NCBI RefSeq assembly: GCF_014638915.1
Contig: NZ_BMFQ01000001.1
Span: 1,005,142 to 1,069,141, forward strand
Reading direction: 5' to 3'
DNA length: 64,000 bases
DNA from: Xanthomarina arctica
GTDB lineage: Bacteria > Bacteroidota > Bacteroidia > Flavobacteriales > Flavobacteriaceae
The notes below the pieces were generated by a model, which saw only the letters and a program-made list of their open reading frames with translations, was not told the DNA's origin and did not search any database. This document shows, piece after piece, positions 21,942-48,682 of this stretch; the stretch's first letter is position 1; the number at the start of each line of letters is the position of its first letter. Position numbers and translations under genes: made by a program.

Positions 21942-22030
21942 TTTGTTAATTTTTATCCATACTTTAAAGTTGTAATGTCGTGAAGTTGTATAGGTGTTAA
22001 GTTGCAATCGTGCTAAGCAATAAACTTAAC

Positions 22031-22072
22031 AAAAAACAACCAACAACTAACAACTAACAACCTACAACTATG
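22031..22072. repeat. AAC-rich low-complexity tract
   Basis: An irregular repeat of the unit CAACTAA/CAAC fills these bases, in the presumed 5' UTR of rng. On the transcribed strand it reads as repeated GTTGTTA. It is likely an unpaired spacer between the folded leader and the start codon, about 90 bases before it. Confidence 0.6.
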
Positions 22073-46317: not shown

Positions 46318-46339
46318 CAAATGTAACAATTTGTTACAT
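46318..46339 (-). promoter_or_regulatory. operator-like palindrome over the acyl-CoA dehydrogenase promoter
   Basis: ATGTAACAATTTGTTACAT (46321-46339) is a perfect inverted repeat with 9-bp arms. TACATTTG on the minus strand (46325 down to 46318) fits the -7 box and overlaps one arm. A repressor bound here would block the promoter. It also overlaps the stop of the upstream tRNA methyltransferase gene. Confidence 0.55.
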
Positions 46340-47047
46340 CTTTAGATAAAAATCTTTTGTCAAATTTATATACTCTGTAGTGTATTGATGTCTCGAAGTT
46401 TCTATGGTAAGATCTTCTAAAATAGGTTCGCTTTTAGTGAATGAAAACTGAATGAGACTTCGTTTAATTTCTGAAGTAGGTGAACCTTTTACGTGCAAAA
46501 TTCTATTTGGAAATAAACCAACTTTTATAGCCAAAGCAATAAAATGTTCTTCTTCCTTAAAAGGAATAATGACAGAGAAGATTCCATCTTCTGATAACAA
46601 TTTTGAAGCACTTTCAACTAAATGATTAAAAGGCATGGCATCTTCAAAGCGGGCCAAATCACGTTGGCTGTTATCTGTTTTATAATCTTCAGAATAAAAT
46701 GGCGGATTTGAAATAATCAAGTCGTAAGTGTCTTCTATCTCTTCTGCAAATTCCTCAAGTGACGCATGATAACAAAATAATCTGTCGGCCCAAGGAGAGC
46801 TTTCAAAATTTTCAACACATTGTTCGTAGGCTTCATCATCAATTTCAAGCGCATCTATCGCTTCGGCATAACTTCTTTGAGCTAGAATAAGTGCTAAAAC
46901 ACCAGTTCCAGAACCTATATCTAATATTGAAAAGGGATTTGTTTCGATGGACGTCCATGCGCCAAGAAGCACGGAATCTGTGCCGATTTTCATCGCACAT
47001 CGGTCTTGGTTTATACTGAATTGTTTAAATTTGAAGGGTTTACTCAC
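46334..47047 (-). CDS. tRNA1(Val) (adenine(37)-N6)-methyltransferase-like (TrmN6/YfiC)
   Basis: The 237-residue protein has a Rossmann methyltransferase fold with SAM-binding ILDIGSGTGVLALIL and the catalytic ISNPPFYSED, the NPPF motif of N6-adenine methylation. The order FKFKQFSINQDRCAMKIGTDSVLLGAW at the N-terminus marks the TrmN6 (YfiC) group, which methylates A37 of tRNA-Val. There is no ATG before it: I use GTG at 47047, since it gives the expected start just before KPFKF; TTG at 47056 is the alternative. That start region overlaps the left TTCCAAA-type repeat beside the four-helix-bundle gene, so the insertion reached the start codon. Confidence 0.9.
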   Translation of the reverse strand: MSKPFKFKQFSINQDRCAMKIGTDSVLLGAWTSIETNPFSILDIGSGTGVLALILAQRSYAEAIDALEIDDEAYEQCVENFESSPWADRLFCYHASLEEFAEEIEDTYDLIISNPPFYSEDYKTDNSQRDLARFEDAMPFNHLVESASKLLSEDGIFSVIIPFKEEEHFIALAIKVGLFPNRILHVKGSPTSEIKRSLIQFSFTKSEPILEDLTIETSRHQYTTEYINLTKDFYLKM

Positions 47048-47079
47048 AAATTCCAAAAATTAAATTCCAAATTCCAAAA
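47047..47079. repeat. left flanking repeat of the four-helix-bundle gene
   Basis: Three copies of an AAATTCCAAA-type unit stand in a row and end 3 bases before the stop of the four-helix-bundle gene. The reverse complement (TTTGGAATTT) occurs on the other side of the same gene. Confidence 0.6.
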
Positions 47080-47082
47080 GGA

Positions 47083-47430
47083 TCAGGATTTGTTAATAAT
47101 AGCAGATAATATTTTACGAAGTTGTTCTGCTTCATTTATTAAATTAATTAAATCTTCATCTATAGGATTTAAATCTCTAAGCAGTTTTAGCCATAAAACA
47201 GATTCTTTGGCTTCCTTTCTTGAAATTTTTAATCTAAACTTGAAATCTTTATCCCCAAGTTTTTCATTCGCTTCAATATAGTTTGCAGCAATTGATCCAG
47301 AGGATTTAACTAATTGTTTTCCATCTTCAATATTTGAAATTGTTTTTTGAAGTTGTCGTACTTTCAATCTACAGTCTTTAGCAAACAAATATGTTCTTTC
47401 CTCTAAATCGTATATTTTATAAGATGCCAT
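47083..47430 (-). CDS. four-helix-bundle protein (23S rRNA intervening-sequence protein family)
   Basis: The 115-residue protein is a helical bundle of the IVP/S23 family (TIGR02436): the usual order is YDLEERTYLFAKDCRLKVR, then SSGSIAANYIEAN near residue 45 and a C-terminal EAEQLRKILSAIINKS. Such genes are known inside spacer insertions of 23S rRNA and as scattered single genes, and are related to the accessory protein Avd of diversity-generating retroelements. Here it sits between trmN6 and rimM, bracketed by inverted TTCCAAA repeats that touch the start codon of one neighbour and the stop codon of the other. This suggests a mobile origin. The cellular role is unknown. Confidence 0.93.
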   Translation of the reverse strand: MASYKIYDLEERTYLFAKDCRLKVRQLQKTISNIEDGKQLVKSSGSIAANYIEANEKLGDKDFKFRLKISRKEAKESVLWLKLLRDLNPIDEDLINLINEAEQLRKILSAIINKS

Positions 47431-47436
47431 AGTCGG

Positions 47437-47475
47437 AAGTTTTGGAATTTGTTATTTCAAGTTTGGAATTTTTTA
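47437..47475. repeat. right flanking repeat of the four-helix-bundle gene
   Basis: TTTTGGAATTTG and TTTGGAATTT are inverted copies of the unit on the left side (47047-47079). The second copy runs into the rimM stop codon at 47473-47475. Confidence 0.6.
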
Positions 47476-47997
47476 AAGATATAAATCTATGAGCCCTTCT
47501 GGAGTTTCAACAAAAACGGTCTTATTTGGTCTATCTATTTTATTAATAAACTCATCATTCATTGGAATTAAGATTTCAATTCCATCTCTGTCTATTTCAA
47601 AAAGAGCTTGAGCTGTAGAATCATTAATCGATACAATAGTTCCCACAGTTCCGAAGTTGATGTCTTCTACTTTAAAACCAATAACTTCATGGAAATAAAA
47701 TTTATCTCCTTCTAATTTTGGCAAAAATTCAAGAGGTAAATACACATCACATTTTATCAAGGCATCAGCATCTGGTTCGTTGTCAACATCTTCAAAACGC
47801 ACACGTAATAAATCTGATTTATGTAATTGAGAGGCTTCAATAAAGAAGGGTACTAAATTATTTCGTAAATCAACAAACATGGCATCTAGGTTTTCGTATA
47901 AGCCTGGTTCGTCTGTATCTAATTTTATAAGTAATTCGCCTTTAAAGCTGTACTTTGATACTATTTTTCCTAAGTAAAAACAATCTTCTTTTTTCAT
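47473..47997 (-). CDS. rimM: ribosome maturation factor RimM
   Basis: RimM binds S19 and helps the 30S head mature. The 174-residue protein has the N-terminal RimM barrel (FYLGKIVSKYSFKGELLIKLDTDEP) at 5-85 and the PRC-like barrel at about 100-170 (FYFHEVIGFKVED, VGTIVSINDSTAQALFEI, ILIPMNDEFINKID). It is downstream of rpsP, an old and conserved pairing. A terminator lies between the two genes, and a GC-rich hairpin sits just before the rimM start codon, so its expression may be damped relative to rpsP. Confidence 0.96.
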   Translation of the reverse strand: MKKEDCFYLGKIVSKYSFKGELLIKLDTDEPGLYENLDAMFVDLRNNLVPFFIEASQLHKSDLLRVRFEDVDNEPDADALIKCDVYLPLEFLPKLEGDKFYFHEVIGFKVEDINFGTVGTIVSINDSTAQALFEIDRDGIEILIPMNDEFINKIDRPNKTVFVETPEGLIDLYL

Positions 47998-48636: not shown

Positions 48637-48650
48637 ATAAATTAATTGAT

Positions 48651-48665
48651 GAGGTTCGCGACCTC
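48651..48665 (-). promoter_or_regulatory. hairpin in the rpsP leader
   Basis: GAGGT-TCGCG-ACCTC is a perfect 5-bp stem with C/G loop in the short rpsP 5' UTR, about 15 bases before the start codon; it may be a target for translational feedback. Confidence 0.4.
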
Positions 48666-48682
48666 TATTATTAATAAGTGTG

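Follow-up and report, generated by a model that had tools for sequence, protein, structure and literature searches.

What kind of unit is formed by a small gene of the S23/IVP family that is enclosed by inverted arrays of a 7-nt word and fits flush between rimM and trmN6? The question is raised by a locus of Xanthomarina arctica, which was analyzed within a stretch of 64,000 nucleotides (contig NZ_BMFQ01000001.1; hereafter the window). Structures of S23/IVP proteins have been solved, and to our knowledge their function is not known. Short tandemly repeated heptanucleotides, the STRRs, occur in cyanobacteria. Tandem heptanucleotides are also on record as TAACTGA in Beggiatoaceae (PMC4679880) and as GGGAATC in Xanthomonas, as well as in Nostoc (PMC4692102), and the heptanucleotide repeats of X. 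campestris are described as forming inverted pairs in 70 cases. Like arrays of the window type, the STRR, TAACTGA and GGGAATC repeats are 7-nt tandem, intergenic and dispersed; unlike these published repeats, the arrays analyzed here are tied to S23 genes. S23 is not mentioned in the main text of PMC4679880 or PMC4692102, and no literature linking S23 with heptad repeats was found among the matches listed by our search, the coverage of which did not extend to subscription papers and preprints.

The gene (47083..47430, minus strand) encodes a protein of 115 aa that matched PF05635 with 53.1 bits (4.2e-14, cut-off 33.8) and TIGR02436 with 71 bits (8.8e-20, cut-off 24), and the Pfam search returned nothing besides PF05635 at E<=0.001. 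Its AlphaFold2 model (pLDDT 90.6) has four helices and is a confidently predicted four-helix bundle. The best solved structural match of the model was 2rld, of the S23 family (TM 0.84-0.89), and a weaker one was 2gsc, the X. campestris protein Xcc0516; both of these S23-family structures comprise five chains, and the X. campestris S23p is described as a pentamer (PMC4990558). Scoring above both curated profile cut-offs and sharing the fold, the window protein belongs to the S23/IVP four-helix-bundle family. Two arms of 32 nt each, 84% complementary and separated by 360 nt, enclose the gene. The upstream arm, 5' of the gene (47440..47471, minus strand), is made of AAATTCC heptads and is inverted with respect to the downstream arm, 3' of the gene (47048..47079, minus strand), which is made of GGAATTT heptads and reads TTTGGAATTTGGAATTT on the minus strand. 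AAATTCCAAA is found at positions 47048, 47062 and 47069 and TTTGGAATTT at 47441 and 47462; spaced by 14, 7 and 21 nt, all copies thus lie in a single 7-nt register. The repeats are beyond chance expectation, with 5 copies of AAATTCCAAA in the whole window versus 0.56 expected and 3 of TTTGGAATTT versus 0.64 (dinucleotide expectation), and they show the 7-nt tandem period and the several intergenic copies that characterize dispersed heptanucleotide repeats.

The element is flush at both ends. The stop codon of the upstream neighbour rimM (47473..47997, minus strand; TIGR02273, 96.4 bits, cut-off 66.2) touches it at 47473-47475, and so does the GTG start of the downstream neighbour trmN6 (46334..47047, minus strand) at 47047-47045, a start common to the congeners with an empty junction. 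The assignment of trmN6 draws on NF047853 (5e-71; 239 bits, under the model cut-off of 350) together with the congener alignment. An initial annotation, made from the letters alone, had described a four-helix-bundle gene enclosed by inverted repeats and fitted flush between the two neighbours, which profiles, fold and coordinates bear out; the strand has been added. The repeats it placed at the gene are there and are not unique to it, as tandem AAATTCC recurs at three further places of the genome, where the listed ORFs include no S23 gene. Elsewhere in the window, an S16-Flavobacteria ribosomal protein leader (RF03138) scored above the gathering score at 48641-48675 (minus strand), upstream of an S16-like gene.

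A total of 36 rimM|trmN6 loci were compared, 8 of the genus (our own included) and 28 from further genomes; 28 of the 58 rimM-bearing genomes were outside this set. Empty sites, which the initial annotation expected at this junction in close relatives, were found in 4 of 7 congeners (G007, G003, G005 and G002), where the rimM stop and the trmN6 start nearly touch and heptads are absent. The remaining congeners carry a decayed S23 remnant (G001), a different insert of 1.4 kb (G006) and a different short insert (G004). Over all 36 loci, the gap amounts to about 7 nt or less, or is replaced by an overlap, in 15; two loci have an intact S23 gene (our own genome, G000, and G014, from another genus), two have a remnant, and in one (G034) only AAATTCC repeats are left, while the other 16 have different content or a wider gap, or lack trmN6 within the locus. 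The S23 protein profile matched in L010 and L184 only; the remnants (L013, L185) and the gene-less repeats (L188) were judged by eye from the nucleotide sequence. The coexistence of presence, absence, remnant and repeat-only states indicates that gene and repeats come or go as a unit and can leave repeats behind. Each state can be explained by gain or by loss, the RimM plus TrmN6 tree being not decisive. The S23 proteins of G000 and G014 are 67% identical and their RimM proteins 70%, which suggests a long stay with co-divergence from the neighbours, and hence that movement of the elements is rare. No target-site duplication was visible in comparison with the congeneric empty sites, the flanks of which have diverged. 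In two other genera (L174 and L180) the junction is filled by an unrelated protein of ~150 aa that the profile does not class as S23, and L190 has a tRNA-like sequence there.

The local arrangement is one case of a general one. TIGR02436 matches numbered 14 in our own genome and 62 in total across the genus (8 genomes), versus 0 in 14 control genomes, and the flanks show inverted word arrays at most S23 genes of the genus, with words that vary by site. For the flank comparisons, 54 of the 62 genus genes were used, and 130 Flavobacteriaceae genes out of 133 unique genes from 155 ORF hits. In the family set, the upstream flank matched the reverse-complemented downstream flank with a mean score of 18.5, versus 10.6 for swapped non-orthologous flanks; 84 of the 130 genes scored above the swapped 95th percentile and 46 did not, and direct flank matches were somewhat raised too (13.9 versus 10.9). 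When flanks were swapped within the same genome (70 genes of nine genomes chosen by hand), the own partner was strictly the best in 51 of 70 cases, about 9 being expected by chance. A flank score of at least 16 was reached by 84/130 S23 genes and by 6/95 control ORFs, the controls being the 95 clean ORFs (free of S23) out of 265. Autocorrelation of the S23 flanks has its peaks at lags 7 and 14, with an elevated value at 21 as well; the lag-7 values are 0.41/0.40 versus 0.32/0.32 in the 95 control ORFs. Of 142 pairs at orthologous sites, 93 showed better arm agreement within than across genomes, 41 worse and 8 the same; the two arms thus tend to drift together. Some arms have 8-nt instead of 7-nt words (L033 and L047, of the AATGAGTT type). 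Inverted repeats around homologues elsewhere, as foreseen by the initial annotation, are therefore present, though with other words; it had caught the local pattern and missed the general one of lineage-typical 7-nt words.

These words follow the protein. Pairs of S23 genes at different junctions had a mean arm score of 16.6 where protein identity was at least 0.55 (n=86), versus 9.7 where it was below 0.45 (n=5249), and the difference persisted when gene-adjacent bases were trimmed and 23 non-overlapping pairs were used (p 7e-9). Conversely, pairs at the same junction with protein identity below 0.40 had unrelated arms (score 9.5, n=34), and some junctions seem to have been occupied by S23 lineages that are unrelated to each other. 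When every different-site pair is included, protein and arm similarity are only weakly rank-correlated (rho 0.10), as arm likeness fades in distant relatives and the signal sits in close ones. Since the words track the protein lineage and not the site, it appears that gene and arms travel together, which is what movement as one unit would predict.

Dispersed heptad arrays are frequent where a genome has S23 and scarce where it has none. Hits of one generic word pattern in 60 family genomes were set against their S23 counts: at least 3 hits were found in 36/45 S23-plus and 0/15 S23-minus genomes (Fisher 2.5e-8, kinship ignored), and outside the family in 38/54 and 3/19, respectively (kinship ignored). 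The pattern, which represents a single word family, was absent from 12 of 61 S23-plus genomes. S23 presence was predicted from it for 19 genomes, with strong 'present' calls correct in 7/7, weak 'present' calls in 2/4 and 'absent' calls in 4/8 (one-sided p 0.014), and for 79 further genomes, where S23 was found in 44 of the 47 with at least 3 hits. The three exceptions (G137, G078 and G099, the latter two of the same genus) had 3 to 11 hits, possibly owing to recent S23 loss or to another partner. Overlapping pattern hits numbered 1628, of which S23 flanks would account for ~156, so that the majority lie elsewhere. In G050, a single S23 gene with the word AGTGGTT is accompanied by an unlinked AGTGGTT array. 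Random stretches held 3 heptad arrays per 400 kb in S23-plus genomes and 0 per 400 kb in S23-minus genomes, counts too small to be telling. The window itself contains a gene-less inverted AACAACT array at about 21982-22072 (strictly 22028-22069), between ribonuclease G-like and HU-like genes, both on the minus strand and with names recognised from their translations.

The association extends beyond the family. From at least 580 loci of a genome scan, 80 named loci were kept, 78 of which were used for flank scores; those outside Bacteroidota were grouped by record title (Geobacter, Acidobacteria, Nitrospirae, Patescibacteria, Omnitrophica and others, one being unassigned). The 39 loci so labelled gave 19.4 for matched versus 9.5 for swapped flanks, with 27/39 above the 95th percentile and a lag-7 autocorrelation of 0.41/0.37. 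For 18 other Bacteroidota loci the means were 19.7 versus 11.1, with only 4/18 above that percentile, and for 21 named Flavobacteriia loci 17.4 versus 11.9, with only 8/21 above it and a direct score (19.8) exceeding the inverted one; in this last set lag 8 is a further autocorrelation peak. Among six S23 loci of cyanobacterial plasmids, inverted heptads were seen in four, direct heptads in one and little in one. One S23 query protein was matched by 45 of 72,556 plasmid records and an S23 query protein by 0 of 50,697 phage records. No S23 match was obtained with the PADLOC profiles. On two of the cyanobacterial plasmids (L275, 3007-3366; L276, 3007-3375), an S23 gene with heptads lies between cas6 and cas4 of a type I-D CRISPR-Cas operon. 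S23 genes are thus associated and linked with inverted heptad arms in several phyla.

Our main reading, to which we give a probability of about 0.5, is that the S23-heptad element is a mobile unit, the protein of which would recognise its own word and move gene plus arms. A regulatory role would account for part of the same data: the heptads would be sites of the S23 protein on DNA or mRNA, through which the host operon is controlled, the dispersed arrays would form a regulon, and the unit would be kept for its benefit and moved only by ordinary recombination. By our own ORF caller, 126/130 Flavobacteriaceae S23 genes point the same way as both of their neighbours, an arrangement compatible with selection for expression no less than with insertion, and words that track the protein, long residence at some sites, and gene-less arrays near gene ends at the loci inspected by eye are likewise in keeping with regulation. 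We nevertheless consider it unlikely, as the junctions have no common theme (rimM, sdh, atp, sco and met genes, read from translations), the S23 gene is missing from most examined relatives at rimM|trmN6, and orientation is looser outside Bacteroidota (23/39, versus 19/21 in the named Flavobacteriia and 14/20 in other Bacteroidota). Quite improbable, in our judgement, is an element acting as RNA, in which the arms would pair in the transcript, RNase III would cut the stem and the S23 mRNA would be excised, as in 23S rRNA intervening sequences (IVSs). The Coxiella IVS is described as an S23 ORF bearing a terminal stem of 28 bp, IVSs being excised by RNase III (PMC4990558), and the window element does fold with its arms paired (z -4.0 versus shuffles). 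A stem needs no 7-nt period, however, and a strand-specific wobble test lent no support to selection on an RNA stem, since mismatches between the arms showed no preference for sense G-U: 133 were compatible with it versus 189 on the antisense, an excess of the latter, at 90 family loci, and 77 versus 75 at 42 others.

The heptads could also be passive products of polymerase slippage, an explanation cited in PMC4692102 and PMC4679880, into which S23 genes merely insert or which they accumulate. This is disfavoured and, we believe, improbable, given that words track the protein and not the site, that the four empty congeneric junctions are heptad-free and that arrays are rare in S23-minus genomes. 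The initial annotation had taken the element for a minimal mobile module without its own transposase, mobilised in trans. The first part agrees with close S23 relatives that have similar words at unrelated junctions; the second is conjectural, no mobiliser having been identified. Its mention of Avd of diversity-generating retroelements, a related family with a four-helix bundle like that of S23, leads by analogy to a reverse transcriptase acting in trans. Kinship with Avd is supported for the relative L075 (PHROG Avd, 4e-5), and Avd structures are among the weaker fold matches (TM ~0.6, E 0.16 or more), whereas the PHROG search with the window protein itself gave no match. Unlike a diversity-generating retroelement, our own genome, with its 14 S23 matches, has no RVT_1 match, so that such mobilisation was rejected there, and within the genus 3 of 8 genomes have a single RVT_1 match each; as a general mechanism it seems highly improbable.

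For the mobile unit, we infer word binding by the S23 protein, and its role in movement, from this linkage. The protein, solved relatives of which have five chains, would bind tandem copies of its own 7-nt word, with help from host replication or recombination functions it would transfer the gene and its arms to gene junctions, and it would also allow short, gene-less arrays to spread. The TRAP ring offers a comparison for pentameric reading of repeats, and it is only an idea that an S23 pentamer might read five or six heptads in a similar way; the median arm length is 40-42 nt.

Among known systems, REP/RAYT elements have a single gene enclosed by short inverted repeats, and copies that lack the gene are found at other places of the same genome. 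The S23-heptad element has the same single gene, inverted repeats and gene-less copies, but S23 is a four-helix bundle in which no transposase domain was found, and its repeats are tandem heptads. It also differs from insertion sequences and MITEs, as Pfam shows no transposase in the window element (PF05635 only). The 23S rRNA IVS is the nearest known kin. IVSs with an S23p ORF, for example that of Coxiella, which has been termed a selfish element, likewise have an S23-family ORF between terminal inverted repeats and are sporadic (PMC4990558). They sit in rRNA, whereas the window element lies outside the 23S rRNA gene, in a junction of protein genes (rimM|trmN6), and window-type elements, unlike IVSs, have arms made of heptad arrays, with as many as 17 S23 matches in one genome.

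More tentatively, S23/IVP proteins may be the trans-acting, word-specific partners of scattered tandem heptanucleotide repeats, with one word per S23 lineage. The gene with its inverted arms would then be the autonomous member of a mobile family, the gene-less arrays would be the repeats seen for decades, and the intervening sequences of rRNA would form one of its branches. As a mobile element, if it is one, the unit would stand out by its small size and by the lack of any recognised enzyme. A protein family lacking a known function is here tied to a class of DNA repeats of unexplained origin, and the link between S23 and heptads with a lineage-typical word makes both open questions testable together.
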